64,000 nt of DNA from Amorphus orientalis (GTDB lineage: Bacteria; Pseudomonadota; Alphaproteobacteria; Rhizobiales; Amorphaceae): NCBI RefSeq assembly GCF_030814015.1, contig NZ_JAUSUL010000001.1:958001-1022000 (forward strand). The letters run 5' to 3'. Shown one piece after another: positions 26,256 through 43,673 of this stretch (positions are counted from its first letter, which is position 1; each line of letters starts with the position of its first letter). The notes beneath the pieces are model-generated. The model was given only the letters and a program-made list of their open reading frames with translations, was not told where the DNA came from and made no database searches. The translations under genes were made by a program, and so were the position numbers.

Positions 26256-27329
26256 ATGAAACCCATTTTCGCTCTGCTCGTGGCAGGTGCCACGGCGCTG
26301 CCGATGTCCGCATCGGCCCAGGAGACCATCAATCTGACCGTGGCTTCCAGCCATCCGCTGGTGGTCCCTTGGGTCGGGATGATCAAGTCGCACTTCATGG
26401 CGAGGACCGACGAGATCCTGGCTGAGACCGGCAACTACGAGATCCAGTGGAACGAGGCGTTCGGCGGCCAGCTCTACAAGGCGAACGCGACGCTGACCTC
26501 GGTGGAGGAAGGCATCACCGACATCGGCTGGGTCTTCTCCTTCCTTGAGCCGGCGAAGCTGCCGCTCAGCCAAGCCTCCAGCTACGCCCCGTTCGCGACC
26601 GCCAATCCGCCGGTCCAGCTCGAGGTGATGCAGGAGCTGTTCGAGACCAACGAGGCCTTCCGTGAGGAGTGGGAACAGTACAATCTGAAAGTGCTCGGCT
26701 TCACCGGCACCGATATGTACGACATCTACACCAAGGAGCCGCTGGAAGGCATCGACGACATCAACGGCATGAAGCTTTCCGCACCCGGCGTGCTGGGCAA
26801 CTGGCTCCGCGGCACCGGGGCGAACGCCGTCGATGGTGCGTTGACCACCTATTACACCGACATCCAGACCGGCGTTTCCGACGGCACGCTCTCGCTGGCC
26901 CTCGGGATCCTGCCGACCAAGGTCTACGAGGTGGCGCCGTACATCAACCGCTTCGACGCCGGTGTCGCCTTCTCCGGCGCGGTGGCCATCAATCGCGACG
27001 TCTGGGACAGCCTTCCCGAAGAAGTCCAGAACGCGATGGTCGAGGCCGGCGAATACTACACCGAGGCCCATGGCAAGGACCTTCTGGAGCGGCACGAGTT
27101 TGCCCTGAACAAGATGGTCGAGCTCGGCGCCGACCAGGATCCGCCTGTCCAGATCATCGAGATGCCGCAGGAAGAGCGGGCGAAGTGGGTGAACATGCTG
27201 CCCGACATCGCCGGCGAATGGGCTGAAGGCCTGGAGGCGCAGGGCGTCCCGGCCGAAGCGTTCCTGGCCGCCTACATGGATGGCCTGCGCGAGCGCGGCG
27301 AAGAGCCCGTGCGCGACTGGGACAAGTAA
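26256..27329 (+). CDS. dctP: TRAP transporter periplasmic substrate-binding protein, DctP family (system 2)
   Basis: A signal peptide (MKPIFALLVAGATALPMSASA, cleavage near ASA-QE) is followed by a DctP-fold protein of 357 residues in all. GGGAGGA lies just before the ATG. TTYYTDIQTGV matches the hinge region also seen in the system 1 protein, and both end in an RDW motif. As in that protein, the usual substrate-clamping Arg is missing: the site reads MKLSAPG, with Ser. The gene begins 19 bp after the YciI-like gene, so the transporter and the catabolic genes form one operon, and its substrate is probably the starting compound of this pathway. Confidence 0.92.
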   Translation: MKPIFALLVAGATALPMSASAQETINLTVASSHPLVVPWVGMIKSHFMARTDEILAETGNYEIQWNEAFGGQLYKANATLTSVEEGITDIGWVFSFLEPAKLPLSQASSYAPFATANPPVQLEVMQELFETNEAFREEWEQYNLKVLGFTGTDMYDIYTKEPLEGIDDINGMKLSAPGVLGNWLRGTGANAVDGALTTYYTDIQTGVSDGTLSLALGILPTKVYEVAPYINRFDAGVAFSGAVAINRDVWDSLPEEVQNAMVEAGEYYTEAHGKDLLERHEFALNKMVELGADQDPPVQIIEMPQEERAKWVNMLPDIAGEWAEGLEAQGVPAEAFLAAYMDGLRERGEEPVRDWDK

Positions 27330-27362
27330 GCCGCTTCCGAAAGTCAGGACGGGCCGGGTCAG

Positions 27363-27926
27363 ATGGCAGCCAATCCCGAGAAAGCGACCGTCTCCGCCGA
27401 GCGGAGGCGGTCGCCGATCGAAATCGCCTGGGCCTGGCTCGTTGAGGGCCTGGCCGCAGTCGGAACCGTGATGATCTGCATCCTCATGGGGATCATCTGT
27501 GCCGATATCGTCGCACGCAACGCGATGGGATCGTCGCTCCCGCTGATCTCCGAGCTCGGCGCGCTGCTTCTGGTGATGATCGTCGCCCTTCAATTCGCAG
27601 CCACCGTGCGCGCCGACCGACTGGCGCGCACGGAAATCTTCTTCGTGACGTTCCGTGACCGCTATCCGCGCGGCGGAGCCTTTCTTTCCGCGCTTTTCAA
27701 TCTTGTCGGAGCCCTGATGATCGGCGGCATCGCATGGGCGACGGTCCACATTCTCCAGAAGGACCTCGATTCGGGCGAGTTCATCGGCGTGCCCGGTATC
27801 GCCACGCTTCCGGTCTGGCCGTTCCGCGTCTTCATCCTGATCGGCATGACGATCACCGCGCTCGAATTCGCCCGTCAGATGGTGGCCGACCTCTGGCGCC
27901 TGGTGAGCGGGAGGGCCGCGGCGTGA
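27363..27926 (+). CDS. dctQ: TRAP transporter small membrane subunit, DctQ family (system 2)
   Basis: The 187-residue protein has four hydrophobic segments and the IVARNAMGSSLPLISELG signature of DctQ near residue 50. It follows dctP by 33 bp and overlaps dctM by 4 bp (GTGA), so it is coupled to it. Confidence 0.9.
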   Translation: MAANPEKATVSAERRRSPIEIAWAWLVEGLAAVGTVMICILMGIICADIVARNAMGSSLPLISELGALLLVMIVALQFAATVRADRLARTEIFFVTFRDRYPRGGAFLSALFNLVGALMIGGIAWATVHILQKDLDSGEFIGVPGIATLPVWPFRVFILIGMTITALEFARQMVADLWRLVSGRAAA

Positions 27927-29236
27927 GTCCTTTGGAAATCGGCGGCTTCGCCGTCCTCGGCCTTCTGGTCTTCATCTATCTGGGCATGCCCATCGGGATC
28001 GGCATGCTGGCCGTCTCGTTCGTCGGCGTTGCCTTCATCCGCAACGACCTCGTCGCCATGCGCATGCTCGGTGCCGTGGCCAACGATTCCCTGCGCGAAT
28101 ATCTCTTCGCGGTCGTGCCGCTGTTCGTGCTGATGGGGCTTCTGGTCACCGTATCGGGGGTCGGCAAGGACACGTTCGACGTCTTCGAGCGATTGCTCAG
28201 GAAGCTGACCGCCGGGCTCGGCATTGCCACGGTCTTCGCCAACGCGGTCTTCGCCTCCATCACCGGCATCTCGATCGCCTCTGCCACGGTGTTCAGCCGG
28301 GTCGCGGTGCCGGAGATGACCCGCCACGGCTACACCAAGAAGTTCGCCACCGGCGTCGTCGCAGGATCCTCTGTGCTGGGCATGCTGATCCCGCCATCGC
28401 TGCTGATGATCGTGTACGCGGTGCTTGCCGAAGAGTCGGTCGGTCGGATGTTCCTGGCCGGCATCGGTCCCGGCATCCTGCTGGCGGTCGCCTTCTCCGT
28501 GACGATCGTCCTGCTCGCGCGGACCCGGAAGAAATTCGTCTTCGACAATCCAGACGACACCGAAACCTACACCGACATTTCCGGTCTCTCCGTCCTCCGC
28601 AAGGCGGTGCCGATCGGAGCGCTGATGCTGGTGGTGCTGGGCGGTCTCTATGGCGGGTTTCTCAACCCGACGGAAGCCGGCGCGGCCGGTGCGTTCGGAG
28701 CGCTCGTCATCGCCATCCTGCGCCGGTCGCTGCCGCCGCGCGTGTTCTGGAACCTGCTGGTGGAGACCGGGCAGATCACTGTCTCGGTGCTGATCCTGAT
28801 CCTGGCCGCAACGTTCTTCAGCCGGATGCTGGCCCTGTCGGGCGTGCCGCGGGAGCTGGCAGAATTTTTCCTGGAGGGGCCGATCGGTCCCTACGGTTTC
28901 CTGCTGGTCTATCTGCTTCTGATCATCGCGCTCGGGATGCTGATCGATTCCATTTCGATCATGCTCATCCTGCTGCCGATCGCGCTGCCGGTCGCGGAGG
29001 CTGCGAACTTCGACATGATCTGGTTCGGCGTGCTCACGGTGGTAGCCGTGGAGATCGGGCTCCTGACCCCGCCCTTCGGGTTATCCATCTATACGATCAA
29101 GTCGGCGATGAACGATCCGGACCTCCCCGTCTCCGAGATCTTCCGCGGCGCTCTTCCGTTCGTTCTGGCGATGATGATGTCGCTGTTGATCCTGGTGATG
29201 GTGCCGTCGATCTCGACCTGGCTGGCCCGGCTCTAA
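27923..29236 (+). CDS. dctM: TRAP transporter large membrane subunit, DctM family (system 2)
   Basis: The GTG at 27923 overlaps the dctQ stop codon. The 437-residue protein is the usual DctM length, with about 12 membrane segments, VVPLFVLMGLLVTVSGVG near residue 60 and GSSVLGMLIPPSLLMI near residue 145. These stretches are nearly the same as in the system 1 DctM (777-2084), so the two are close paralogues. It closes the lyase-transferase-TRAP operon, and a strong hairpin lies just after the stop codon. Confidence 0.93.
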   Translation: MSPLEIGGFAVLGLLVFIYLGMPIGIGMLAVSFVGVAFIRNDLVAMRMLGAVANDSLREYLFAVVPLFVLMGLLVTVSGVGKDTFDVFERLLRKLTAGLGIATVFANAVFASITGISIASATVFSRVAVPEMTRHGYTKKFATGVVAGSSVLGMLIPPSLLMIVYAVLAEESVGRMFLAGIGPGILLAVAFSVTIVLLARTRKKFVFDNPDDTETYTDISGLSVLRKAVPIGALMLVVLGGLYGGFLNPTEAGAAGAFGALVIAILRRSLPPRVFWNLLVETGQITVSVLILILAATFFSRMLALSGVPRELAEFFLEGPIGPYGFLLVYLLLIIALGMLIDSISIMLILLPIALPVAEAANFDMIWFGVLTVVAVEIGLLTPPFGLSIYTIKSAMNDPDLPVSEIFRGALPFVLAMMMSLLILVMVPSISTWLARL

Positions 29237-29372: not shown

Positions 29373-30779
29373 TCAGCCCATCGCCAGGCGCGGCAGCCAG
29401 AGCACGATGGCGGGGAACGCGATCAGCAGGCCGATGGTGATGCCGTCGGCGATGAAGAACGGCGTGACGCCGCGGAACACGTCCTGGACCGACAGGTCTT
29501 CGCGCACGCCGGCCACGACGAAACAGTTCAGGCCTATCGGTGGCGTGATCAGACAGAACTCCGCCATCTTGACCACCAGGATGCCGAACCAGACGGCGCA
29601 CAGCGGACCGCTCATACCGAAGGCGGAATCTTCCGCGGCGACACCCATACCGCCGTTCAGCGCCATCACGGCGGGGAACACGACCGGCAGCGTGAGCAGC
29701 ATCATGCCGATGGCATCCATGAACATGCCGAGGACGGCATAGGCCAGCAGGATCAGGACCAGGGTCATCCAGGGAGACTGGTCGAGACCGGAGATCCAGT
29801 CGGCGAAGGCCGTGGGAAGCTGGGCGAAGCCCAGGAACCGGACATAGATCAGCACGCCCCAGATGATCGTGAAGATCATGATGGAGAGCTTGGCGGTTTC
29901 CAGGAGCGCGGAGCGGAATTCGGGCCAGCGCATGCCATGCCAGACGGCCATGCAGAAGATCACGAACGCGCCGATCGCGCCGCCTTCCGTCGGCGTTCCC
30001 CACGCATTTCCGCCGAACGGGTTGTAGACGAACAGGATGATAAGGGCGACGACGGCGATGACCGGAAGAACGGGGGGCAGGGACCGCAGACGCGCGCCCC
30101 AGCCGAAGCCGCCGACCGGAGGCCCGAAGCCCTTGATCACGATCGCGAGCCCGACGACCAGCCCGCCGTAGATCAGCGCCGAGAAGAGGCCGGGCAGGAA
30201 GCCCGCCAGGAGCAGCATGCCCACGTCCTGCTCGACGATGATGGCGTAGATCACCAGGATCGCAGAGGGCGGGATCAGCGAGGCGAGCGTGCCGCCCGCC
30301 GCGACCACGCCGGCAGCGAAGCGCTTGTCGTAGCCGATTGCCAGCATCTCAGGGATCGCGACACGCGCGAACACGGCCGACGTGGCGATCGAGGCGCCGG
30401 AGACGGCGGCGAATCCGGCGGTGGAGAAGATGGTCGCGACCGCAAGGCCGCCCGGCAGCCAGCCCATCCAGCGCTTGGCCGCTTCGAACAGCGCCCGGGT
30501 CAGGCCGGCATAGTAGGCGAGATAGCCGATCAGGATGAAGGTCGGGATCAGCGAGAGGGCCTGGCTCGACACCTTGGAGTGGGGAACCTGTCCGGCAGTC
30601 TTGGTGGCGATCTCGATGGCCCAGCCAAGCTCGCCGGAATCGTAGCCCTTCTTGGACCAGAAGATCCAGACAAGCCCGATCAGGCCGGCAATCGCGGCGG
30701 CGAACGCCACCCGCATTCCGATCACGACCAGCACGAGAAGCCCGGCGGTGACGTAGATGCCGATTTCGATCGGTTCCAT
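29373..30779 (-). CDS. dctM: TRAP transporter large membrane subunit, DctM family (system 3)
   Basis: The 468-residue protein starts MEPIEIGIYVTAG at 30779 and has about 12-13 membrane segments. GWLPGGLAVATIFSTAGFAA and GTLASLIPPSAILVIYA are the family signatures. It is longer than the other two DctM proteins in the window and clearly from a different branch. It follows dctQ by 2 bp in the operon dctP-dctQ-dctM, which diverges from the dctBD two-component genes. Confidence 0.93.
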   Translation of the reverse strand: MEPIEIGIYVTAGLLVLVVIGMRVAFAAAIAGLIGLVWIFWSKKGYDSGELGWAIEIATKTAGQVPHSKVSSQALSLIPTFILIGYLAYYAGLTRALFEAAKRWMGWLPGGLAVATIFSTAGFAAVSGASIATSAVFARVAIPEMLAIGYDKRFAAGVVAAGGTLASLIPPSAILVIYAIIVEQDVGMLLLAGFLPGLFSALIYGGLVVGLAIVIKGFGPPVGGFGWGARLRSLPPVLPVIAVVALIILFVYNPFGGNAWGTPTEGGAIGAFVIFCMAVWHGMRWPEFRSALLETAKLSIMIFTIIWGVLIYVRFLGFAQLPTAFADWISGLDQSPWMTLVLILLAYAVLGMFMDAIGMMLLTLPVVFPAVMALNGGMGVAAEDSAFGMSGPLCAVWFGILVVKMAEFCLITPPIGLNCFVVAGVREDLSVQDVFRGVTPFFIADGITIGLLIAFPAIVLWLPRLAMG

Positions 30780-30781
30780 TT

Positions 30782-31444
30782 CTAGGCGTCCTTGCTGCCC
30801 GCCGCGGACGCGGACGAGCTCTGATCGGAAAGCGCCGAGGCTTCTTTCTCGGCCTGGGCCGCCGCGTCCTCGATCAGCGGCACGGCGACGGGCTTGTCGG
30901 TGTTCTCCGCGATGGCGCGGACATAGCCCCACAGCTGGAGCACGAGGCGCACGCACATGACGGCGAAGGCAAGCGGCACGATCAGCTTGGCCGGCCAGAT
31001 CGGGAGCGCGATGTCGATGGTGGAATCCCGTGACCAGAGGGGAGCCGCAAAGTCGAACGAGCGCAGGAAGTGGGACCAGGATCCCCAGACCAGAAGCATC
31101 ATCAGAAGCAGGATGAAGAAGGTCGTGATGAATTCCGCGATCCAGAGTGCCCGGCCGTGCAGGGTGCCGACCACGATGTCCATCCGGATGTGGCCGCCGA
31201 GCCGCTGGACGTAGGCGATGCCGGTGATGGCGATGAGCGGCATCACCTGTTCGATCCAGTCGACATATCCGGGGACGGGCTGGTTGAAGAAGTTGCGCCC
31301 GGCGACCGAAATCACGGCCAGGATCATCAGGCCGAAAACCGACAGGCCGGAGATCAGGCCGAGAAAGCCTTCCAGCCGAAAAAGGGCACGGTCCAGGCGC
31401 GACAACAGACTGTCGTCGGACAGGATGCTCGAAGAGCCTGCCAT
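30782..31444 (-). CDS. dctQ: TRAP transporter small membrane subunit, DctQ family (system 3)
   Basis: The 220-residue protein has four membrane helices (VFGLMILAVISVAGRNFF is the first-helix signature) and an extra C-terminal tail of about 40 polar residues rich in Ala, Glu and Ser, which the other two DctQ proteins lack. A hairpin with a short T-run lies between this gene and dctP, so it is probably made at lower levels than the binding protein. Confidence 0.9.
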   Translation of the reverse strand: MAGSSSILSDDSLLSRLDRALFRLEGFLGLISGLSVFGLMILAVISVAGRNFFNQPVPGYVDWIEQVMPLIAITGIAYVQRLGGHIRMDIVVGTLHGRALWIAEFITTFFILLLMMLLVWGSWSHFLRSFDFAAPLWSRDSTIDIALPIWPAKLIVPLAFAVMCVRLVLQLWGYVRAIAENTDKPVAVPLIEDAAAQAEKEASALSDQSSSASAAGSKDA

Positions 31445-31513: not shown

Positions 31514-32548
31514 TTACTCGGTCGCGCCGCCGTGCTCGGCCTTGTAGGTCTCGATGAACTCGACCGTCTGGTCGTAGAGCTCCTGCGCCGGCAGGCCGCG
31601 CGCATTGTTCTCCTCGATCCAGGCCTGGGCGACCGGATCGGCCACACGACCGCGGAAGTCGGCGATCTCGTCCTCGTCGTAGGTGACGGTTTCGATGCCT
31701 TCCTCGTCGAGTTTGGGCTGCCAGCGGGCCATCGTGTTGTTCTGGTAGAAGTCGATGTAGTGGTTGAGAGCCTCGTCGACCGACCCGAGCAGGGCCTCGC
31801 GGTGCTCGTCCGACAGCGACTCAAGCGCGTCGGTGTTCACCACCACCGGGCAGTTCACCGTGCCGGGGTTGAGGTTGGTGGTCCACCACTGGCCGCCCTC
31901 GACGGTGCCGAAGGCGAGGTGGGCGTGCGGGGCGAAGGCCGCGCCCTGGATCACACCGGAATCCAGCGCCTGACGGACTTCCGTCGCCGACATGGAGGTC
32001 GGGACTGCGCCGACGCGCTCCATCGCCTCCCCGATGCCGCCGGTGGCGCGGACGGTGAAGCCGTCATAGTCCGACAGCGACGTGAGCGGCTCGCCCTTGC
32101 CGACGATGTTGTACTGGGGCATGGGCGACGGCATCAGCAGCGTCGCGTTCCAGCGGGCGAGATCCTTCTTCACCGCGGGGTGCTGATAGATCTCTTCCGA
32201 CAGCGCGCGCTCCAGCTCCAGCGAGTCGACGCCGAGGAACGGCAGTTCCAGAACGGTGATGCTCGGGTTCTTGTCGCGATGGTAGCCGGCGCAGAACTGG
32301 GCCATCTCGAAGGCGCCGATGGACAGGCCGTCGAGATTTTCGCGGTTGTTGGACAGGCCGCCATAGGAAATGTTCAGGGTGAAGTCGCCGTTGGTCTTCT
32401 GGTCGACCAGCTCTGCGAGCTTTTCCACGTGCTCGGTGAAGGCGCGGCGCTTGCCCCAGAGCGACACGTTCCACTGTTCGGCGAACGCCGGCGCGACATA
32501 GAGCGTCGCGAAGGCGGCGGCGAGGGTGAGGGTAGTCGCTTTCTTCAT
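31514..32548 (-). CDS. dctP: TRAP transporter periplasmic substrate-binding protein, DctP family (system 3)
   Basis: The ATG at 32548 is preceded by GGGAGGA and opens a signal peptide (MKKATTLTLAAAFATL, cleavage near AFA-EQ), giving 344 residues. Unlike the other two DctP proteins here, it keeps the conserved arginine at the ligand site (DGFTVRATGG), so it likely binds a carboxylate in the usual way. It is transcribed away from dctBD, whose sensor probably reports the same ligand. Confidence 0.92.
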   Translation of the reverse strand: MKKATTLTLAAAFATLYVAPAFAEQWNVSLWGKRRAFTEHVEKLAELVDQKTNGDFTLNISYGGLSNNRENLDGLSIGAFEMAQFCAGYHRDKNPSITVLELPFLGVDSLELERALSEEIYQHPAVKKDLARWNATLLMPSPMPQYNIVGKGEPLTSLSDYDGFTVRATGGIGEAMERVGAVPTSMSATEVRQALDSGVIQGAAFAPHAHLAFGTVEGGQWWTTNLNPGTVNCPVVVNTDALESLSDEHREALLGSVDEALNHYIDFYQNNTMARWQPKLDEEGIETVTYDEDEIADFRGRVADPVAQAWIEENNARGLPAQELYDQTVEFIETYKAEHGGATE

Positions 32549-32647
32549 GGTATCCTCCCAGGATTCATTCGAATTTCTTTTGCGGACTCTTATCGTCGGT
32601 GCGGAGCTCCTCCAATGAATCAAACCGCCGGCCGCTCAGGTCCTTGC

Positions 32648-32699
32648 CTGCGGATTTCCGCAGGGCCGTCGCGGGCTCTATGCTGGTAGGGTCCAGCAT
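32648..32699. promoter_or_regulatory. Two inverted repeats between dctP and dctB
   Basis: CTGCGGATTTCCGCAG (32648-32663) has 7-bp arms with a 2-base centre. ATGCTGG...CCAGCAT (32680-32699) has 7-bp arms with a 6-base spacer. They lie in the 195-bp region between two divergent operons, so either could bind the DctD-like regulator. No GG-N10-GC sigma-54 promoter was found in this region by eye. Confidence 0.5.
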
Positions 32700-32743
32700 G
32701 CCGCGTCGCGCAGCGAAAGTGCAACCTTAAGAGGATCGAAGCC

Positions 32744-34582
32744 GTGACCTCCCATGACGCATCGGCCGATCGGGCCGGGCCGTCCGGCCGGCTGCAAGGT
32801 CTCCGTCGCGCCGTATCGCGCTTTCGCCCGCCGCACATCCTGCCCGTAGCGGTTCTGCTGGTCGTGTTCGCCTGGTTGCTGATGGCGGTCGTTGTGCCCT
32901 ATTTCCGGGCCGACGAACGAAGCCGCGCCTCCGGTCGGCTGCTGGTCTACGAGACCGGCCTTCGCTCGGAGATCGAGCGTTTCGAGCACCTGCCGTTCGT
33001 GCTGGCCAGCGATCCCCGTGTCGTCGAGGTAGCGCGGGGCGGCGACCCGGCGGCGCTTAACGCGCGGCTCGAGACGTTTGCCGATCGCGCGGGCATCGAA
33101 GCCATCTATCTGATGGACCTGGACGGACAGACGATCGCCGCCTCCAACTATCGCGACGCCGGCTCCTATGTCGGGCAGAACTACAGCTTCCGGCCCTATT
33201 TCAAGGAGGCGAAGGCCGGCGGTACGGGGCATTTCTTTGGGGTTGGAGCCACGACCCGCCGTCCCGGTTACTTCATTGCCGTTCCCGTGCGCGACGCAGC
33301 GGACAGCGTCGTCGGGGTGATCGCGGTCAAGGTCGGTCTGCAGCAGCTGGAAACATCCTGGAATCAGAGCGGTGACGCCATCCTGGTCACCAACCGGGAC
33401 GGGGTCGTCGTGCTCGCATCCCAGCCCGAGTGGCGCTACCGGACGATTGACGGGACGACCGATGCCCAACTTCAGCGGATCCGCGACAATCGCCAGTTCG
33501 GCGGCGCGGATCTGGAGATGTTCGGGGGCACCAGCGAGCAAGGGGTCGCGGTTCCGCGGGAGTTTGCCAACGCCATCCACCTGACCAGCGCGAACCTGCC
33601 CCATGGATGGGCGCTGCATTATCTCGCCGACGATCAGGAGGCCCGGACCCGGGCCTGGCTGGTGGCGGCCGGCGCGCTGGTGCTGGTCATGCTCAGCCTG
33701 CTGGCGGCGCAGCTTCTGAGAACAGCCCGCATCCGCCGCGCCCTCGGCCGGTCGGAGGCGGAGGAGGCGTCGCTGCGCAGGATGAACGAACGCCTGGAGC
33801 ACGAAATCGAGGAACGCCGCGCGGCGGAAACGCGGCTCGAACAGACCCAGAGCGAGCTGCGCCGGGCGAGCCGGCTCGCGGCCCTCGGGCAGCTTGCCGC
33901 CTCCGTCAATCACGAGCTCGCCCAGCCGCTTGCGGCCATGCGCAACCAGCTCATGGCCCTCGATCTTGCCCGACAAAACGCGCAGTCTGACCAAAGCGCA
34001 CCGGCTGCCGATCAGCGCATGCTCGGGCGCCTGTCGTCCCTCCTGGACCGGATGGAGGGCATTACCCGTCAGCTCAAATTCTTCAGCAAGCCGGGCGACG
34101 GCATGATGACGCGCATCGACCTGCGCGAGGCGGTCCCGGAAGCGCTGGCCCTGGTCCAGCCCAACATCGATGCGAACGAGGTGGTCGTCGAGGTGAACCT
34201 CCCCGAAACGCCGATCGCGATCCGCGGCAACCGGCTCCGGATCGAACAGGTTCTGGTCAATCTCCTGCGCAACGGTATCGACGCCATGGAGGAAAGCGAC
34301 GACCGCCGGCTGCGTCTGGACCTCCAGAGCGACGGCGCATTCGGTCGGCTTCTGGTGAGCGACAGCGGCACCGGCCTCGGCGATCGCACGATGGACGAAC
34401 TGGCCGAGCCGTTCGTCACCTCCCGCGCCTCCGGCAAAGGCATGGGGCTGGGCCTGTCGATCTCCCGCGAGATCGTGCGCGAACATGGCGGGACGCTGAG
34501 GGCCTGGAACGGCGGCTTCGGAGATGTGGGTGCCGTCGTCGAGGTCGCGCTGCCGCTGACCTTGGATACCGAACCGACATGA
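32744..34582 (+). CDS. dctB: DctB-like sensor histidine kinase
   Basis: The 612-residue protein starts at a GTG. Two membrane helices (about residues 31-51 and 305-326) flank a periplasmic double-PAS (PDC) sensor with YLMDLDGQTIAASNY and SYVGQNYSFRPYF, the DctB dicarboxylate-type pocket. A coiled coil leads to the histidine kinase core: His390 in SVNHELAQPLAAMRNQ, the N-box near NLLRNGIDAMEE, and G-boxes DSGTGLG and GMGLGLS. It would sense the periplasmic substrate of the neighbouring TRAP system and phosphorylate the regulator encoded next, with which it overlaps by 4 bp. Confidence 0.93.
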   Translation: MTSHDASADRAGPSGRLQGLRRAVSRFRPPHILPVAVLLVVFAWLLMAVVVPYFRADERSRASGRLLVYETGLRSEIERFEHLPFVLASDPRVVEVARGGDPAALNARLETFADRAGIEAIYLMDLDGQTIAASNYRDAGSYVGQNYSFRPYFKEAKAGGTGHFFGVGATTRRPGYFIAVPVRDAADSVVGVIAVKVGLQQLETSWNQSGDAILVTNRDGVVVLASQPEWRYRTIDGTTDAQLQRIRDNRQFGGADLEMFGGTSEQGVAVPREFANAIHLTSANLPHGWALHYLADDQEARTRAWLVAAGALVLVMLSLLAAQLLRTARIRRALGRSEAEEASLRRMNERLEHEIEERRAAETRLEQTQSELRRASRLAALGQLAASVNHELAQPLAAMRNQLMALDLARQNAQSDQSAPAADQRMLGRLSSLLDRMEGITRQLKFFSKPGDGMMTRIDLREAVPEALALVQPNIDANEVVVEVNLPETPIAIRGNRLRIEQVLVNLLRNGIDAMEESDDRRLRLDLQSDGAFGRLLVSDSGTGLGDRTMDELAEPFVTSRASGKGMGLGLSISREIVREHGGTLRAWNGGFGDVGAVVEVALPLTLDTEPT

Positions 34583-35934
34583 TCGACGCGACCCGTCCTT
34601 CCGCTCCGCCCCGCCGCATTCTGGTGGTCGACGACGACGCAGGCATGCGGGATTCCCTTGAGGATCTGCTGTCGGCTGCCGGCTGGACCGTCACCACGTT
34701 CGGCCGGGCTGCAACCGCGCTGGCGAAGCTTCCGGAAGTCAATCCGGACGTGGTCCTGGCCGACGTGCGCATGCCGGGTATGTCCGGGCTGGAGCTCCTG
34801 CGGGAACTTGCCAAGCCCGAGATGCCACCTGTGGTGCTGATCTCCGCACACGGCGACATTCCCATGGCCGTGACCGCGGTCCAGGAAGGTGCCTACAGCT
34901 TCGTGGAGAAGCCCTACGAGCCGCATCGGCTGCTCAGCATCGTGCAGCATGCGGCCGACCAGTTCCGCATGGCGGCTGACACGAAGCGCCTGCGCGCCCG
35001 GCTGGCCAGCCTCTCCGGTCTCGACCGGGTGCTTCTCGGCCAGACCGAGGAGATCCGCACCCTGCGTCAGGACGTGCTGGACCTCGCAGAATCCGAAGCG
35101 CCGGTCCTCCTCGTGGGCGAGACGGGAACCGGAAAGGAACTGGTTGCCCGGGCCCTTCACGATCTCGGGGCACGGCCCGGCGGGCCGTTCGTCGCCATCA
35201 ACTGCGCGACCCTCGAACAAGACCGGTTCGAGATGGAGATGTTCGGCGCAAAGGACGGCCCCCGGGGCTTTCTCGGCGAGGCCGACCGCGGATCTCTCTT
35301 TCTCGACGAGATCTGCAGTTGCCCGGAGCGGGTTCAGGCCAAGCTCCTCCGCGCGATCGAGACAGGCACCTTCAACCCCGTCGGGGCGGATAGCGGCGCC
35401 TCTTCGGATTTCCGCCTGATCTCCGCCTCTAATCTGGAGCCGGAGAAAGCGGTACGCGAGGGCCTTCTGCGCGCGGACGTCTTCTATCGCATCAACACAT
35501 TCGTGCTGCGGCTGCCGCCGCTGCGCCAGCGGCTGGAAGACCTGCCGCTGCTCTACTCCCACTTTCTGGACGAGTTCGCGGCGGTCTACGAGATCGAGCC
35601 GCCCCAGACGAGCCACGAGGACATGGCAGCGCTTCTGGCTCACGACTGGCCGGGGAATGTCCGCGAACTCCGCCATGTCGCCGAGCGGCATGTGCTGGCG
35701 GCGCGCAGGGGACGCGGATCTGCGGCGGAGGCCATGTCGAACGATCAGCAGCGCTCCGAGTTTCCAGGAACGCTGCGGGAAGCCGTCGCGGCATTCGAGC
35801 GGGAAATGGTGGGGCGCGCGATCCGGGCCCATTCCGGCCGGATGGACGCCGCCGCGGAGGCGCTCGGTATCGGACGGCGGACGCTGAACGAGAAGATCGT
35901 CAAGCTCGGCCTTGACAAGGACAACTGGCTCTGA
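34579..35934 (+). CDS. dctD: DctD-like AAA+ response regulator lacking the GAFTGA loop
   Basis: The 451-residue protein has a receiver domain (phosphorylated Asp62, Lys111), an AAA+ domain with Walker A GETGTGKE (180-187) and Walker B SLFLDEI (239-245), and a C-terminal Fis-type helix-turn-helix (GRMDAAAEALGIGRRTLNEKI). In DctD and NtrC, the loop between LFG and Walker B holds GAFTGA, which touches sigma-54. Here that stretch is MFGAKDGPRGFLGEADRG, about ten residues shorter and without GAFTGA. Known members without the motif, such as HupR and Rhodobacter NtrC, act on sigma-70 promoters. It overlaps the kinase gene by 4 bp and probably controls the divergent dctPQM. Confidence 0.9.
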   Translation: MIDATRPSAPPRRILVVDDDAGMRDSLEDLLSAAGWTVTTFGRAATALAKLPEVNPDVVLADVRMPGMSGLELLRELAKPEMPPVVLISAHGDIPMAVTAVQEGAYSFVEKPYEPHRLLSIVQHAADQFRMAADTKRLRARLASLSGLDRVLLGQTEEIRTLRQDVLDLAESEAPVLLVGETGTGKELVARALHDLGARPGGPFVAINCATLEQDRFEMEMFGAKDGPRGFLGEADRGSLFLDEICSCPERVQAKLLRAIETGTFNPVGADSGASSDFRLISASNLEPEKAVREGLLRADVFYRINTFVLRLPPLRQRLEDLPLLYSHFLDEFAAVYEIEPPQTSHEDMAALLAHDWPGNVRELRHVAERHVLAARRGRGSAAEAMSNDQQRSEFPGTLREAVAAFEREMVGRAIRAHSGRMDAAAEALGIGRRTLNEKIVKLGLDKDNWL

Positions 35935-36127: not shown

Positions 36128-36197
36128 GGCCCGTCGCGGACGCCGGCCCGATCGGCCCGTCCGCTCGATGGGATTCCTTTTCCGCAGGAGCTTGCCT

Positions 36198-36647
36198 TTG
36201 CCTTTGGTTGCAACCGAGTTTACCCCGTGGTCCGCCCTTGCCGGCGGCGTCCTGATCGGCCTTTCGTCAGTCATGCTGATGCTGTTCTTCGGGCGCATTG
36301 CGGGGATCATCGGGGTCGTCGCCCGCGCGGTATCCGCGGTTGCCGTGCCGGCCATCGACCGGAACTGGCGGATTGCCTTCATCGTGGGCCTGTTCGCAGC
36401 GCCCCTGACAGTGATGGCGATCACCGGGTCTCCGGTCGAGCAGACCGTTTCCGACAATCTTCCTCTGATGGCGTTCGCTGGCCTTCTGGTCGGCTTCGGA
36501 ACCGCCCTCGGCTTCGGCTGCACATCCGGCCACGGCGTGTGCGGTCTCGCCCGTCTCTCGCGCCGATCCATGGTGTCGGTGGCCGTCTTCATGGGTGCCG
36601 CGATCGCGACCGTCTACATCCTTCGTCACGCGACGGGGGTGCTGTGA
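36198..36647 (+). CDS. YeeE/YedE-family sulfur transport protein, first half
   Basis: TTG at 36198 is chosen because AGGAG (36186-36190) lies 7 bases upstream and the protein then begins just before TEFTPWSALAGG, the usual family start. An in-frame ATG at 36168 has no ribosome-binding site. About four to five membrane segments are seen, with GFGCTSGHGVCGL carrying conserved cysteines that relay thiosulfate-type sulfur. It overlaps the next gene by 1 base (TGATG), so the two halves are co-made and likely form one transporter. Confidence 0.85.
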   Translation: MPLVATEFTPWSALAGGVLIGLSSVMLMLFFGRIAGIIGVVARAVSAVAVPAIDRNWRIAFIVGLFAAPLTVMAITGSPVEQTVSDNLPLMAFAGLLVGFGTALGFGCTSGHGVCGLARLSRRSMVSVAVFMGAAIATVYILRHATGVL

Positions 36648-37093
36648 TGCGGGTACTCTTCGGTTTTCTGAGCGGCCTGCTGTTCGGTCTCGGCCTTGTC
36701 GTATCCGGCATGGCGAACCCGGCGAAGGTCCTCTCGTTTCTCGATCTGTTCGGGGCCTGGGACCCGAGCCTGATCTTCGTCATGGGGGGCGCCGTGGTCG
36801 TGACGTTCGTCGGCTACCGGCTCGTGCTGAAGCGGTCCGCGCCGATGTTCATGAGCGGGTTCGACCTTCCCGGCACCCGCCTGATCGATGCGCGGCTGGT
36901 GCTCGGCGCCATGGTGTTCGGCATCGGCTGGGGGATCGGCGGCTATTGTCCGGGCCCGGCGCTGACGGCGCTGCCGCTGCTTGCGCCCGGAACGCTGGTC
37001 TTCGTACCCGCGATGCTCGTTGGAATCTGGGGCGGCGTGATCCTGCGCGGATCCACTTTGTTCACTCGCAATCAGAAGGAAGCAACGGCATGA
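36647..37093 (+). CDS. YeeE/YedE-family (DUF6691-type) membrane protein, second half
   Basis: The 148-residue protein has about four membrane segments, starting LFGFLSGLLFGLGLVVSGMANPAKVL, which is the family signature, and a conserved cysteine in IGGYCPGPALTAL. It pairs with the preceding protein. The stop overlaps the start of the metallo-beta-lactamase gene by 4 bp, so the three genes form a tight operon for sulfur compound uptake and oxidation. Confidence 0.85.
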   Translation: MRVLFGFLSGLLFGLGLVVSGMANPAKVLSFLDLFGAWDPSLIFVMGGAVVVTFVGYRLVLKRSAPMFMSGFDLPGTRLIDARLVLGAMVFGIGWGIGGYCPGPALTALPLLAPGTLVFVPAMLVGIWGGVILRGSTLFTRNQKEATA

Positions 37094-38040
37094 CAAGTCA
37101 GCTTCAACAGCCGGTCGTCCGTCACTCTCCCTCTCGCGGTCCCGGTAGCGCGGACGTCTGGGGCATCTACGAGCCGGATACCGGCTCGATCCAGTATGTC
37201 TGCGCCGACCCGGAGACGAAGAAGGCCGCGCTGATCGACGTCGTCTGGAACTTCGATCCGAAGCACTACGCCACCAGTACGACATCAATGGATCAGGTCC
37301 TCGACCTCGTGAAGGCGGAAGGCCTGACCGTCGAATGGGTGCTCGACACCCATCCCCATGCCGATCACTGGATGGCTTCGGCCCACCTGAAGGAGAGGAC
37401 CGGCGCCCCAAACGCCATCGGCGAGAAGGTGAAGGAAATCTCCGGGATCTGGGCGGAGCTCTACAATCTTCCCGGCGCCTTCGATCCGGAGCGGGATTTC
37501 GACCGCCTGTTTGCCGACGGTGACACGTTCAAGATCGGCAATCTCGACGTCCGCGTGATCCTGTCCCCGGGCCATACGCTCGGCTCGATCACCTACGTTG
37601 TCGGTGACGCCGCGTTCGTCCACGACACGTTGATGTATCCTGACGCCGGAACCTCCCGGACCGACTTCCCCGGAGGCAGCGCTGCCGTCCTCTGGGACTC
37701 CCTCCAGACAATCCTCTCGCTGCCGGCCGAGACTCGGCTTTATGTGGGGCACGACTACGGCACGTCCGAGCGCGATGAGCCCATGTGGGAGGCGACGGTC
37801 GCCGAGCACAAGGCCGGCAACATCCACGTGAAGGACGGTACGAAACGGGAGGACTGGATCGCCATCCGGGAGAAACGGGATGCCACGCTGGCGTTGCCCG
37901 ATCGCATCCTGGCTGCGCTTCAGGTCAATCTCCGCGGCGGTCGTCTGCCGGCGCCGGAGGCGGACGGGCACTTCTATCTGAAGCTGCCGCTGAACCGGTT
38001 CGGGTCTTACGACGAGCAGGATCCGCCTCACGTGGCCTAG
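37090..38040 (+). CDS. MBL-fold hydrolase, persulfide dioxygenase-like
   Basis: The 316-residue protein has the metallo-beta-lactamase signature THPHADHW (residues about 86-93), later metal ligands in SPGHT and HDTLMYPDAG, and GHDYG near residue 220. The arrangement matches ETHE1/Blh-type persulfide dioxygenases, which oxidise glutathione persulfide to sulfite. Co-location with YeeE/YedE proteins and a SulP transporter supports a role in sulfide detoxification or thiosulfate use. Glyoxalase II is an alternative in this fold, but the context favours sulfur. Confidence 0.85.
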   Translation: MTSQLQQPVVRHSPSRGPGSADVWGIYEPDTGSIQYVCADPETKKAALIDVVWNFDPKHYATSTTSMDQVLDLVKAEGLTVEWVLDTHPHADHWMASAHLKERTGAPNAIGEKVKEISGIWAELYNLPGAFDPERDFDRLFADGDTFKIGNLDVRVILSPGHTLGSITYVVGDAAFVHDTLMYPDAGTSRTDFPGGSAAVLWDSLQTILSLPAETRLYVGHDYGTSERDEPMWEATVAEHKAGNIHVKDGTKREDWIAIREKRDATLALPDRILAALQVNLRGGRLPAPEADGHFYLKLPLNRFGSYDEQDPPHVA

Positions 38041-38149
38041 CAGATCGGGGGCGGTCGCGCCGTCGTGTGCAGCCGAGATTCGGGTTCACAGTCGTTCGAG
38101 CATGGCCGGGACCCTCCGCTCGCTGAAGGGATCTGAAAGCAGCAGTCCG

Positions 38150-39925
38150 ATGAAGCGTTTTTCCGTTGCCAGCTATCTGCCCATTCTCGACTGGGGGCGG
38201 ACCTATAGCGCCCGCACGCTGACGGGCGATCTGGTGGCGGCGGTGATCGTCACCATCATGCTGATCCCCCAGTCGCTGGCCTATGCGCTCCTGGCCGGGC
38301 TGCCCCCGGTGGTCGGGCTCTATGCCTCGATCCTGCCGCTCCTGATCTACGCCCTCTTCGGCACCAGCCGGACACTGGCCGTGGGGCCGGTCGCCGTGGT
38401 GTCGCTGATGACGGCCGCGGCGGTCTCCGAAGTCGCGGCTCCGGGCAGCGCGGAATATGTCGCGGCGGCGGCGCTGCTCGCCCTGATCTCGGGCGCGATG
38501 CTGCTCGTGCTCGGCCTGTTCCGGCTCGGCTTCATCGCCAACCTTCTGTCCCACGCCGTGATCTCCGGCTTCATCACCGCCTCCGGAATCCTGATCGCGG
38601 TCTCCCAGCTGAAACACATTCTCGGGGTATCGGCGGGCGGCCGCAACCTGGTGGAGATCGTCGTTTCGATCTCGGGCACGCTGGGACAGATAAATGTCCA
38701 TACGCTCGCCATCGGGATGGTCTCGGTCGGCTTCCTGTTCTGGGTGCGCACCGGGCTGAAGCCGCTTCTGATGAAGACCGGCTTGAGCCCCTTCGTCGCC
38801 GGATTGGTGTCGCGGGCCGGTCCGGTGATCGCTGTCGCCGTCAGCATTCTGGCGGTTCTCACCTTCGACCTGGCCGATAAGGGCGTGCGCATCGTCGGCG
38901 AGATCCCGGCGGGGCTGCCGCCGCTGCATCTGCCCATGATCGACATGTCGCTGGTCCTGGGACTGATCGGGCCGGCCGCGTTGATCTCCGTGATCGGGTT
39001 CGTGGAGTCCGTCTCGGTCGCCCAGACTCTGGCTGCCAAGCGCCGGCAGACCATCACGCCGAACCAGGAGCTCGTCGGACTGGGGGCTGCAAACATCGCC
39101 TCCGCGTTCTCCGGCGGCTATCCGGTAACCGGCGGGTTCGCGCGGTCGGTGGTGAACTTCGATGCCGGCGCGGAAACGCCGGCTGCGGGCGCTTTCACTG
39201 CCATCGGCATCGCGCTCGCCTCGTTGTTTCTCACCCCGCTGCTCTATTTCCTGCCGATCGCCACCCTGGCCGCGACCATCATCGTCGCAGTGCTCAGCCT
39301 GGTGGATTTCGCCGCGCTGAAGCGGACCTGGGCCTATTCGCGCCACGACTTCGCGGCGATGATCACCACGATCGTGGTGACGCTGGCCGTCGGGGTCGAG
39401 GCGGGCGTCGTGACCGGTGTCGGCCTCTCGATCGCGCTGCTCCTGTGGCGAACCTCCCGCCCGCACATCGCCATCGTCGGTCAGGTGCCGGGCACCGAGC
39501 ACTTCCGGAACGTGAAGCGCCACGAGGTCGTCACCGATCCCCGGATTCTCTCGCTGCGGATCGACGAGAGCCTGAATTTCGCCAATGCCCGCACGATCGA
39601 GGACTTCATCCTCAACGAGATCGCGCAGCGTCCCTCGGTTCGGCATCTGGTGCTGCAGTGCACGGCGGTGAACGAAATCGACGGAAGCGCGCTGGAGAGC
39701 CTGGAGCTGATCATGCACCGATTGTCCGACCAGGGCATCGCGCTGCATCTGTCGGAGGTGAAGGGGCCGGTGATGGACCGGCTCAAGCGGGCGTCCTTCC
39801 TCGAGCACCTGACTGGCGGCGTCTACCTGACCCATTATCAGGCGATGGCAGCTCTGGCAGTCGGCTTCGCCGGTGAGGCGTGTCCGCCGGATCGGTCGGC
39901 AAGGGCTTCCGAGCCGCATTCCTGA
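38150..39925 (+). CDS. SulP-family anion transporter with STAS domain
   Basis: The 591-residue protein has 10-12 membrane segments, with QSLAYALLAGLPPVVGLYAS near residue 40 as the SulP signature, and a C-terminal cytoplasmic STAS domain (about 460-570: LSLRIDESLNFANART and VLQCTAVNEIDGSALESL). SulP proteins carry sulfate, bicarbonate or other anions. The ATG at 38150 is used; an in-frame ATG at 38102 is possible and neither has a strong ribosome-binding site. Sitting 109 bp after the persulfide dioxygenase-like gene, it may export or import sulfate or sulfite. Confidence 0.92.
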   Translation: MKRFSVASYLPILDWGRTYSARTLTGDLVAAVIVTIMLIPQSLAYALLAGLPPVVGLYASILPLLIYALFGTSRTLAVGPVAVVSLMTAAAVSEVAAPGSAEYVAAAALLALISGAMLLVLGLFRLGFIANLLSHAVISGFITASGILIAVSQLKHILGVSAGGRNLVEIVVSISGTLGQINVHTLAIGMVSVGFLFWVRTGLKPLLMKTGLSPFVAGLVSRAGPVIAVAVSILAVLTFDLADKGVRIVGEIPAGLPPLHLPMIDMSLVLGLIGPAALISVIGFVESVSVAQTLAAKRRQTITPNQELVGLGAANIASAFSGGYPVTGGFARSVVNFDAGAETPAAGAFTAIGIALASLFLTPLLYFLPIATLAATIIVAVLSLVDFAALKRTWAYSRHDFAAMITTIVVTLAVGVEAGVVTGVGLSIALLLWRTSRPHIAIVGQVPGTEHFRNVKRHEVVTDPRILSLRIDESLNFANARTIEDFILNEIAQRPSVRHLVLQCTAVNEIDGSALESLELIMHRLSDQGIALHLSEVKGPVMDRLKRASFLEHLTGGVYLTHYQAMAALAVGFAGEACPPDRSARASEPHS

Positions 39926-40121: not shown

Positions 40122-40190
40122 TTATCAATAGTTTATATGCGTGCCCCGGCGTCGGGTTCGTGTCCGTTCAAAAAACGCGTCGGGGTTGGA

Positions 40191-43100
40191 ATGCGCACAG
40201 GACTGATCAAGACGGCACTCGTCATCTCGGTGCTCGTGGGTGCGGCGGGAGGGGCCGTCGGTGAGGATGCTGGGCCGGCCGCCCTATCGCCATCGTCTGC
40301 CGTGCGCGATGCGCTGGTCCAGGCCGCCGGCTACGGCGACCGGTCGCTGATCGCCAGCGTCGCGGAGAATGCGCGGCTGACACCGGACCGGGCGGATCTG
40401 ATCGCCACGACGGCGACCGATCTGAGGCCGGATCTGGCCGGACGGATCCGCCGGGCCGCAACGGTCGGGCGGGAACTCGCCGCGACGTATACCGGCGGCG
40501 CTGCCGGTATGAATTCGGCAAGCGCGCCTGCGGCCAATCCGACGCCCTATCCGGGCGGCAACGCGGACATCCCGATTGCCTCGCTCAGCGAGTACCAGCG
40601 CAACTACAGCCTCGACGCGATGCATGTGGATGCTGCGCTTGCCCAGGGGCTGACGGGCAAGGGGGTGGTGGTCGGCGTGATCGACACCGGCATCGACAGG
40701 CGCCCGGACGGGTCGGTGCATCCCGAATTCGCCGGCCGGATCGATCCCCGGTCGACGAGCTTCCTGCACTGGTTCGACCACGACCTGGTCTGCGAATCCA
40801 ACGACACTTGGAACTGTGACCGGTTTTCGGACGCGGAGATCCTGGCCGCCTTCGATCAGGGGCTGACGGACTCGATGGATCAGGAGGGGCACGGGACCCA
40901 CGTGTCCGGCATCATCGGCGCCGGCCGGAACGGCTTCGGCATGCAGGGCGTCGCGCCCGAGGCGACGATCCTGGCGGTCAAGGCGATCACCCAGGGTGGG
41001 ATCGTGTTGACGGACGACGGCGACATCGTGTCGACATACGACCTCGAGCGATGCGGTCGGGCGGCCGCAAACGACGACTGCGATCCGATCGGGGGCAGTG
41101 GCGACGAGCCCGCGAAAGCGTTCAATTACCTGGCTCAGTTTTCCGACGTGAAGGTTATCAACGGCAGCTTCGGTCCCAACGAGGATGACGGCGCCGTGAC
41201 CTGGGATCTCGGAGATGCGGAGCAGCAGGAAGACGACTTGCTGCCCGAGGCCCGGGCCATGCGCGAGAATCTGGATGCCGGACAGATCATCGTCATGGCG
41301 GCAGGTAATGCACGGGACGACTCTCCGATCCTGTCGGAAAATCCGATCGGAGCGGGCCTCTATCCTTTCATTCAGCCGGCCAATCAGGATGCTCGTAACT
41401 CCGCCGGTGCGCTGATCTATGACGATCACGGCACCGGGATCGATCTGAGCTTCACGTCGCCGGCGGGTCTCGCGGCGGCGGAAGCGGCCGACGGCAAGGC
41501 GCGCGGCCGGATCGTGGTGGTGGTGGCGCTGGACGCCTACAACAACCTCGCGAGCTACTCGCAGATGTGCGGTGTGGCGAAGGAGTGGTGCGTGTCGGCT
41601 CCCGGCGGCGACCAGGTCGCGCCTTACTTCCCCGACAGCGGGCTTCCGGGGGACCGGGGCATTTATTCGACGGTGCCTGAGGACAGCTACAAATTCGATT
41701 CAGGCACGTCGATGGCGTCTCCGAACGTTGCGGGTGCGATTGCGGTTCTGATCGAGGCGTATCCGACGTTCACGCCGGCGGAGATCGTGCACATCCTGTT
41801 CACGACGGCGGAGGATCTGGGCGCGCCTGGCGTGGACGCGGTGTTCGGCTGGGGGCTTGTGCGCCTGGACCGGGCGCTGTCGGTGGGTCCGATCGGCATG
41901 ACCGGAACGGGGACGTATACGGTCGGCGCGTCGGGCGGCGACACGCGGTGGCTGGTGGACTTCACCAGCGACGGCAGCCTGGAGAAGCAGGGCTCCGGCA
42001 CGCTGACGGTCGCGAGCAAGGCGGCGTTCCGGCAGGCCTCGGCGGTTGACGGGGGCACGCTGGCGGTTGGCGGCACGCTGACCACGCCGCGGCTTGCGGT
42101 GAACCAGGGCGGCCGTCTGTCGGGCACGGGCTCCGTTGTGGCGGACGTGACGGTCGCCGGCGAGCTTGCGCCGGGCGCCTCGCCGGGCACCCTGAGCGTG
42201 ACGGGCGACCTGACGCTGACGGAGACGGCGACGACGACGATCGAGGTTGACGGGACCGGGACGGGCAGCGGCGCGGGCAATTACGACCGGATCATCGTCA
42301 ACGGGTCGGGCTCGGTCTTTACGGCGGGGGGCACGCTGGCGCCGGTGCTGCGCGGGATCTCCGGATCGGCGACCAACAGCTTCACGCCGGCGGTGGGCCA
42401 GCAGTTCGCGGTCGTGCAGGTGCCGTCGGGCAGCGTGACGGGCTCGTTCTCCGGGGTGCGGCAGCCGGCGTCGGGCCTTCCGGCGGGAACGCGGTTCGAC
42501 GTGCTCTACTATCCGAGCGTGCTGACGCTGGCGGCGACGCCTGCGAGCTACGCGAACCTTGCGGCCCTCGGGATCGGTCAGACGGGGAACGAGCGGGCGT
42601 TCGGGTCGGCGCTGGACGCGGCGCGTCCGGCGGCGGGCGTGCGGCCGGCGAGTGCCGACAACGAGCTGTTCAACACGCTCTATTCGGCGAGCGAGGCGGA
42701 TCTGGCAGCGGGCTTCTCCAGCCTGACGGGTCAGCTTCACGCGGAGATGGGGACGACGGCGGTTCGCTCGGTTGGCCGGTTCGCGGACACGATCGGGTCG
42801 CGTCAGCTGGGGCTGATGGCGGACTGGCTGACGGCGCAGTCGGCGGCCTATGGCGAGGGCCAGGCGTGGGTGGAGGCGGAGACGACGCTGACGGACGTGG
42901 GCGCGTCCGGCGGTGTGTCGGGCTACGATGCGCGCTCGACGAACGTGGCGTTCGGCGTGGATCACCGGGTGAGCGCGCGGGTCGCGCTCGGCTTCGCGGC
43001 GGCCTACGAGTATGCGGACGTGTCGTCGGATGCTCACGGGGCGGGCGACGTGACGACGTATCAGGCGGGTCTCTACGGGACGTTCGATGCGGGCGTGGTG

Positions 43101-43673
43101 GCGCTGGCGGCCCGCGGCGGCCTGAGCTACGGGGACCTGTCGACGAGCCGGACGACGGCGCTCGGCGGCTACGGGGCGACGGCAAGCGCGGACGGCCACG
43201 GGTTCGGCGGGTTCGCGGAAGCGACCGCGTTCCGGGCGTTCGAGACGCCGGTGGTGACGGTGACGCCGTCGGCGACGCTGGGCTACCGGGCGTTCGGGCG
43301 GGACGCGATGACCGAGAGCGGCAGCGTGTTCGCGCTGTCGGTCCCGAGCGAGACGTTCTCCGAGACCCAGACGACGCTTGCGGTGGCCTTCTCGCGTCGG
43401 TTCGCGCTGGGCAACGGCTTCGTGCTGGAGCCGGTGCTGAGCGCCGGCTGGCGGCACGACTATGGGGACGTGGCGCAGACGTCGGACCTCGGCATCCTGG
43501 GCGCGTCCTACGACGTGGCCGGAGCGGATGTGGGCCGGGACGCGTTCCTGGGCGAGGTGACCCTGACGGCGCTGAAGGGCGACCGCTTCGCCCTCGGCGC
43601 CTCCTACCAGGCGGAACTGCGCGACAATCTCACCGCCCACACCTTCCAGGCAGAGGCCAGCTTCCGCTTCTGA
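40191..43673 (+). CDS. Autotransporter serine protease, subtilisin (S8) passenger, copy 2
   Basis: The 1160-residue protein has a signal peptide (MRTGLIKTALVISVLVGAA), a short helical region, an S8 domain with Asp165, His234 and Ser507 as the triad, beta-helix repeats and the same type Va barrel ending SFRF. Over the last ~656 residues only about 16 differ from copy 1 (7420-10908), while the protease domain before that is only about three quarters identical, with changes concentrated in likely surface loops. The gene is convergent with livF, whose stop codon lies 6 bp after its own. It would be exported to the cell surface like copy 1, probably with altered cleavage specificity. Confidence 0.95.
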   Translation: MRTGLIKTALVISVLVGAAGGAVGEDAGPAALSPSSAVRDALVQAAGYGDRSLIASVAENARLTPDRADLIATTATDLRPDLAGRIRRAATVGRELAATYTGGAAGMNSASAPAANPTPYPGGNADIPIASLSEYQRNYSLDAMHVDAALAQGLTGKGVVVGVIDTGIDRRPDGSVHPEFAGRIDPRSTSFLHWFDHDLVCESNDTWNCDRFSDAEILAAFDQGLTDSMDQEGHGTHVSGIIGAGRNGFGMQGVAPEATILAVKAITQGGIVLTDDGDIVSTYDLERCGRAAANDDCDPIGGSGDEPAKAFNYLAQFSDVKVINGSFGPNEDDGAVTWDLGDAEQQEDDLLPEARAMRENLDAGQIIVMAAGNARDDSPILSENPIGAGLYPFIQPANQDARNSAGALIYDDHGTGIDLSFTSPAGLAAAEAADGKARGRIVVVVALDAYNNLASYSQMCGVAKEWCVSAPGGDQVAPYFPDSGLPGDRGIYSTVPEDSYKFDSGTSMASPNVAGAIAVLIEAYPTFTPAEIVHILFTTAEDLGAPGVDAVFGWGLVRLDRALSVGPIGMTGTGTYTVGASGGDTRWLVDFTSDGSLEKQGSGTLTVASKAAFRQASAVDGGTLAVGGTLTTPRLAVNQGGRLSGTGSVVADVTVAGELAPGASPGTLSVTGDLTLTETATTTIEVDGTGTGSGAGNYDRIIVNGSGSVFTAGGTLAPVLRGISGSATNSFTPAVGQQFAVVQVPSGSVTGSFSGVRQPASGLPAGTRFDVLYYPSVLTLAATPASYANLAALGIGQTGNERAFGSALDAARPAAGVRPASADNELFNTLYSASEADLAAGFSSLTGQLHAEMGTTAVRSVGRFADTIGSRQLGLMADWLTAQSAAYGEGQAWVEAETTLTDVGASGGVSGYDARSTNVAFGVDHRVSARVALGFAAAYEYADVSSDAHGAGDVTTYQAGLYGTFDAGVVALAARGGLSYGDLSTSRTTALGGYGATASADGHGFGGFAEATAFRAFETPVVTVTPSATLGYRAFGRDAMTESGSVFALSVPSETFSETQTTLAVAFSRRFALGNGFVLEPVLSAGWRHDYGDVAQTSDLGILGASYDVAGADVGRDAFLGEVTLTALKGDRFALGASYQAELRDNLTAHTFQAEASFRF

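Follow-up and report, generated by a model that had tools for sequence, protein, structure and literature searches.

Activators of sigma-54 promoters and activators of sigma-70 promoters rely on different chemistry, and the conversion of one into the other is the question addressed here. DctD-type switch proteins normally work only with sigma-54. The reference for the present locus is DctD of Sinorhizobium and Rhizobium, a group I bacterial enhancer-binding protein (bEBP) that activates dctA together with sigma-54. A stretch of 64,000 nucleotides of the Amorphus orientalis genome (hereafter the window) encodes a DctD-like response regulator at positions 34579-35934, which shares with these proteins the receiver-AAA+-Fis layout and a DctB partner, as well as an operator core, since the S. 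meliloti DctD site given in PMC11077940 includes the 14-bp core TGCGGAAATCCGCA. In contrast to them, this regulator and its closest relatives, designated here short-loop DctD, have neither a GAFTGA loop nor a -24/-12 promoter; a tripartite ATP-independent periplasmic (TRAP) transporter replaces dctA, the operator is proximal to a putative promoter, and the protein is kept in genomes without detectable rpoN. The reading we consider probable is that a DctD by descent now acts at dctPQM from a promoter-proximal site to activate the housekeeping (sigma-70 type) polymerase, and that selection still maintains its ATPase.

Among more distant relatives, Rhodobacter capsulatus NtrC acts from a remote enhancer, and VpsR, TyrR, DhaR and YplP carry other receiver or sensor domains and are not known to stand in a DctB/DctD/TRAP context. 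The window protein has in common with R. capsulatus NtrC, HupR and Caulobacter NtrC a bEBP fold without GAFTGA, but it belongs to the DctD lineage, has a local and seemingly single-target regulon and is not orthologous to NtrC; moreover, in place of a remote enhancer it would rely on two sites, a strong operator around -75 and a weak one around -42. The parallel with HupR and Rhodobacter NtrC drawn in the initial annotation is apt as regards mechanism, but not kinship. Relatives devoid of GAFTGA have been reported at sigma-70 promoters, namely HupR, R. capsulatus NtrC, Caulobacter NtrC, VpsR and TyrR (PMC3162934, PMC10274813), and Caulobacter NtrC also displays an eight-residue L1 deletion (PMC10274813). 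VpsR, TyrR, DhaR and YplP have been described as bEBP homologues with a defective GAFTGA (PMC3162934). Brucella NtrX likewise has a shortened loop without GAFTGA and was the best PDB match by structure and sequence (5m7n/5m7p), but identity to the window DctD was limited to 34-35% and NtrX-like proteins fall outside the DctD family. A literature search over titles and abstract openings, partial in its coverage, returned no account of this DctD group. GAFTGA-less relatives at sigma-70 promoters are known, but the literature searched did not reveal a DctD lineage making the switch, with unswitched sisters, a conserved operator and genomes without detectable rpoN.

A DctD clade with a shortened L1 loop

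Response_reg, Sigma54_activat, AAA_lid_14 and HTH_8 domains were all found above Pfam cut-offs in the window regulator. As stated in the initial annotation, Walker A, Walker B and the Fis domain are intact, and catalytic residues are conserved in the clade described below. From FG to the residue preceding LFLDE, the alignment gave 18 residues, compared with 26 in GAFTGA-bearing relatives (shortened stretch MFGAKDGPRGFLGEADRGSLFLDE; between MFG and SLFLDE, AKDGPRGFLGEADRG), and no GAFTGA motif was found in the window protein when aligned with these relatives. The annotated loss of loop and motif was thus borne out, its size being eight residues and not 'about ten'. A sequencing error was ruled out as the source of the deletion, as a protein from the same genus (L097, 90% identical) carries an identical one. 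An AlphaFold2 model based on 16 aligned sequences (predicted local distance difference test, 80.7; predicted template modelling score, 0.50) served for confirmation of the fold only, the domain arrangement being unreliable. No DctD model was present among the best 25 NCBIfam matches listed for this protein, and its name rests on the linkage to kinase and transporter and on the operator: an adjoining DctB-type kinase and a transporter target provide the context of a group I bEBP, and a DctD operator lies at the target promoter.

Homologues were gathered from 10 family genomes, 297 order genomes, 385 class genomes and one scan of named genomes (best 80 loci), the short-loop status of loci being taken from the alignment. 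This yielded 28 distinct short-loop proteins, each at least 51% identical to the window DctD, with members in Leisingera, Roseovarius, Roseobacter SK209-2-6, Marivivens, Celeribacter, Amylibacter and Litoreibacter, among others. Since an eight-residue deletion is common to 26 of them (three residues are missing in L110 and 17 in L127), the loss of the loop is more than chance, and an accident restricted to one genome was rejected, the deletion being clade-wide. A 75-row tree united the 28 proteins in one group (Shimodaira-Hasegawa-like approximate likelihood ratio test, 99) within GAFTGA-bearing DctD-like proteins, with two close relatives, L106 and L107, which retain GAFTGA and GSFTGA respectively, as sisters (support 100). 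The clade persisted after removal of the loop columns (60 rows; 99/99, and 98% of 200 bootstrap trees). Because the short-loop proteins group together and beside such sisters, a single loss in the ancestor of a clade spanning several alphaproteobacterial groups is the simplest account.

The trees placed the window protein in the DctD family. NtrC-like rows (L030/L033) and NtrX-like rows, so labelled by similarity and not from a family scan, branched outside the DctD family in the 75-row tree, in which HupR was not included. Membership in NtrX or NtrC was ruled out on this basis, even though NtrX was the best PDB match, and the loop loss in the DctD clade is therefore an event separate from the NtrC-like and NtrX-like proteins included.

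The loss of a motif essential to relatives, together with the still larger loss in L127, might be viewed as the mark of a decaying, non-functional regulator. Such a fate is scarcely credible in view of ATPase, phospho-acceptor and HTH residues which stay nearly invariant across the clade while identity to the window DctD ranges from 52 to 90% (15 relatives). Receiver Asp62, the Walker A Gly and Lys and Walker B Asp243 are found in 28/28 members and Walker B Glu244 in 27/28; arginines occupy what we take, from general bEBP anatomy, to be the Arg finger 1, Arg finger 2 and sensor II positions in 28, 27 and 28 of the 28. Operator and gene linkage are retained as well. The conservation of the ATPase residues suggests that ATP use is still required: its binding, and probably also its hydrolysis, would continue to serve oligomerisation.

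GAFTGA was also affected elsewhere among DctD-like proteins. A second, independent clade without the motif (L076, L079, L096, L140, L142 and L143) was found in Rhodobacterales-type genomes; its Walker B DE is replaced by ED and its Walker A Glu by Thr, so that the ATPase is possibly altered or lost. Modified motifs were observed in L012/L115 (genome G006; GFDGHV, with a nearly full-length loop), L095 (GAFPGA), L149 (GAFTSA) and L150 (GAFTDA).

Distribution of rpoN and promoter class

A search for rpoN (PF04552 and PF00309) was performed in 31 genomes, 28 from the clade and three with GAFTGA-bearing proteins. The gene was found in the latter three and in 14 of the clade genomes, and was not found in the 14 others, among which completeness is 100% for G318 and G546 and 86% for G185, the remaining 11 being unrated and several of them metagenome bins. 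In seven of the rpoN-negative genomes (G318, G546, G677, G679, G680, G684 and G686), none of the 28 AAA+ bEBP-type domains (E<=1e-15) had GAFTGA. Judging from these genomes, clade DctD is retained where sigma-54 cannot be its partner. This corrects current annotation: even where a genome has no rpoN, the clade proteins are hit by domain models for sigma-54 activators. The window genome itself carries one rpoN, and thus the absence of sigma-54 does not explain the missing loop there; three clear proteins of the bEBP class were found in it, namely the window DctD, L001/L033, in which GAFTGA is complete, and the NtrX-like L022, which lacks the motif.

The initial annotation had noted no GG-N10-GC promoter between the genes to be controlled. 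Indeed, no match to TGGCAC-N5-TTGC having GG as well as GC was found in the dctP-dctB intergenic region, where the closest partial match scored 8/10 and lacked GG/GC, and the best match in the dctP region of L097 was 6/10. In the 450 bp that follow dctD, a -24/-12 box (at least 9/10, with GG and GC) occurred at 27/53 GAFTGA-bearing loci versus 0/26 short-loop loci (p=1.6e-6, which overstates independence as the rows are related). This count excludes L120 and L054, which coincide with L112 and L116 respectively, and L107, whose contig ends after dctD; the window and L097, in which dctPQM is divergent, were scored separately as given above. A separate locus scan found -24/-12 boxes at 12/58 distinct GAFTGA-bearing loci (13/59 if G052 is counted twice), and one perfect box in 27 short-loop loci, located inside dctD. 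The sister L106 has a perfect TGGCAC-N5-TTGC before TAXI-TRAP genes (TAXI, TRAP-associated extracytoplasmic immunogenic) and a weaker operator upstream. Likewise, L116 combines a GAYTGA DctD, a dctPQM about 50-64% identical to that of the window and a perfect -24/-12 box, with no operator of the CTGCGGAAATCCGCAG type. These loci and the counts indicate that the -24/-12 box goes with the loop. The state before the switch (GAFTGA-bearing sisters, in one of which a -24/-12 box is visible) and the state after it (the short-loop clade, with a proximal operator) thus coexist; since kinase type, operator core and transporter class are common to both, the individual steps lend themselves to reconstruction and testing.

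Could sigma-54 nevertheless still be used, through mixed oligomers with the GAFTGA-bearing NtrC-like protein of the genome or through a contact that does not require the loop? The window genome retains RpoN and one GAFTGA-bearing bEBP, and a GAFTGA-less NtrC has been tied to sigma-54 genes in DNA-binding mutants (PMC12421884). However, the failure to detect rpoN in half of the clade genomes, the 0/26 clade loci with a -24/-12 box after dctD and the lack of one in the window dctP region make this very improbable. The case for sigma-54 independence of clade DctD, which the initial annotation had proposed, is strong on account of the 14/28 genomes without detectable rpoN and of operators standing at promoters that lack -24/-12 boxes.

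Operator and downstream block

The palindrome CTGCGGAAATCCGCAG was near-perfect (13-16 of 16) in all 21 short-loop dctP upstream regions first collected, and 14/16 was reached in 0/11,000 trials with shuffled regions. The operator core, at 12/14 or better, lies beside dctBD in 26/28 clade members (the window and 25 of the 27 others), the exceptions being L105 (G173) and L110 (G400). In G400, dctBD has no adjoining transporter and the sole exact genomic copy of the operator stands before a dctPQM elsewhere (72.5/67.7/79.1% identical to window dctPQM), followed by the same downstream block; regulator and site are therefore linked in trans. Exact operators were present in 9/385 class genomes, that is in 5/6 with a short-loop DctD and in 4/379 without (Fisher 1e-8); the sixth of the former, G546, has a 14/16 operator, and no dct genes were found near the exact operators of the four latter. 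As for other targets in the window genome, the sole further site within one mismatch (C1:1288604) was discarded, having no surrounding dct gene. Taken together, these matches make a strong case for an intact DctD operator. At four clade loci that were checked (L103, L113, L124 and L128), the operator is followed by a gene for a binding protein of the TAXI type (NMT1_3), and the regulator hence tracks TRAP-class transporters and not one substrate. The locus offers a small, seemingly single-target system in which the role of an AAA+ ATPase at a sigma-70 promoter could be studied.

When 27 regions were aligned on the block downstream of the operator, GCRRWTTYCTTCATAGNCA was found at a near-fixed distance from the palindrome (within 3 bp in 26/27), with a -10-like NAWNNT 17 bp after TAGNCA (A in 20/27, T in 18/27). 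The second-best operator match fell at +32 to +34 bp in 20.3/27 regions (ties shared), compared with a mean of 1.1 and a maximum of 5.6 in 1000 shuffles. Many GAFTGA-bearing loci have tandem operators with the same spacing, for instance at -75/-107 relative to the start specified by the -24/-12 box. The conserved block 33 bp beyond operator 1 resembles a further, weak operator that directly adjoins a promoter of the sigma-70 type. Counted from the -10, and thus from the start site that it would imply, the centre of operator 2 would be near -42 and that of operator 1 near -75. Class II activators of sigma-70 promoters bind near -42. Confidence in a proximal sigma-70 promoter is moderate.

In the mechanism that we propose, the sigma-54 interface would have been lost once, in the ancestor of the clade. 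DctB would phosphorylate short-loop DctD, probably at Asp62; the phosphorylated protein would bind the strong operator near -75 and, cooperatively, the weak one near -42, from where, in a class-II-like position, it would recruit or activate the housekeeping polymerase at dctPQM. A wider scenario can be put forward tentatively: one lineage may have moved a whole transport regulon to another promoter class. The 33-bp spacing of the tandem DctD enhancer would have persisted as the enhancer came to stand directly against a sigma-70 promoter (about -42/-75), and the AAA+ activator, deprived of its sigma-54 loop but not of its ATPase, would have become a class-II activator that hydrolyses ATP and acts on the housekeeping polymerase; in part of the lineage, the loss of sigma-54 would have followed.

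Several observations weigh against the proposed mechanism. The second operator is a resemblance only, and the block could serve another protein; in the window, operator 2 is weak and a better second match (10/14) exists at +49. The window -35 and -10 are poor, with a putative spacer of 15 bp, and a strict sigma-70 scan of 32540-32800 found no promoter. The counts opposing GAFTGA-bearing and short-loop loci are not phylogenetically independent. L105 (G173) has no such operator, its nearby TRAP genes being only distantly related (DctM 31%). Lastly, the GAFTGA-less Caulobacter NtrC has been reported to raise sigma-54-dependent transcripts in some mutants (PMC12421884).

The same two operators might also serve repression, DctD obstructing the housekeeping polymerase as long as no signal displaces it, in which case the lost loop would be irrelevant to function. 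Operator 2 abuts the -35 region, and the GAFTGA-less Caulobacter NtrC both represses and activates (PMC12421884, PMC10274813). Repression is nonetheless unlikely: the poor putative -35 (TAGNCA) and the negative strict scan fit a promoter needing an activator, the strong operator would lie well upstream, near -75, and in GAFTGA-bearing kin operators of this kind precede -24/-12 boxes, promoter elements that depend on activation. Operator geometry thus favours activation over repression, with moderate confidence.

Surroundings of the regulator in the window

The coordinates of the features are given in Table 1. In the window and in L097, dctPQM is divergent from dctBD, and most clade members have dctBD-dctPQM in line. 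With the divergent layout, one operator may serve both directions in the region 32549-32743. Comparison with solved structures did not yield a substrate for DctP, the closest chains (4nap/4pgn, E ~1e-17) bearing generic names.

Table 1. Positions of the regulator, its neighbours and the putative control elements in the window
Feature	Position	Strand	Basis
dctM (start taken at dctQ stop)	29373..30782	-	Pfam
dctQ	30782..31444	-	ORF (open reading frame), Pfam
dctP, TRAP solute-binding protein; divergent from dctBD	31514..32548	-	ORF, Pfam
Putative -10, GATAAG; 15 bp from putative -35 (usual clade spacing 17 bp)	32589..32594	-	inferred
Putative -35, TTGGAG; at the place of the clade's TAGNCA	32610..32615	-	inferred
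Putative weak operator 2, GGCGGTTTGATTCA; 33 bp from operator 1; 8/14 to operator core	32616..32629	-	conservation
Operator 1, palindrome CTGCGGAAATCCGCAG, upstream of dctP; sole exact copy in window genome	32648..32663	-	motif and genome scans
DctB-like sensor kinase (dCache_1, HisKA, HATPase_c); adjoins dctD in 28/28 clade loci examined	32744..34582	+	ORF, Pfam
DctD-like response regulator without sigma-54 contact loop	34579..35934	+	ORF, 451 aa (amino acids); Pfam domains; tree
Receiver domain, aa 14-122; invariant Asp62, likely phospho-acceptor	34618..34944	+	Pfam, alignment
Walker A GETGTGKE, aa 180-187	35116..35139	+	ORF, alignment
Shortened L1 stretch, aa 222-239; 8 residues shorter than in GAFTGA-bearing relatives	35242..35295	+	alignment
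Walker B LFLDE, aa 240-244	35296..35310	+	ORF, alignment
Fis-type helix-turn-helix (HTH_8), aa 403-442	35785..35904	+	Pfam

A further TRAP system, with members of the DctP and DctM families (26256-29233, plus strand), faces the dctPQM cluster, and no operator of at least 14/16 was found near it. On the other side of dctBD, a sulfur-related cluster (36168-39925, plus strand) comprises Sulf_transp, DUF6691, a metallo-beta-lactamase fold and a SulP-type permease, and is followed by a subtilase autotransporter (Peptidase_S8 and Autotransporter; 40137-43673, plus strand).

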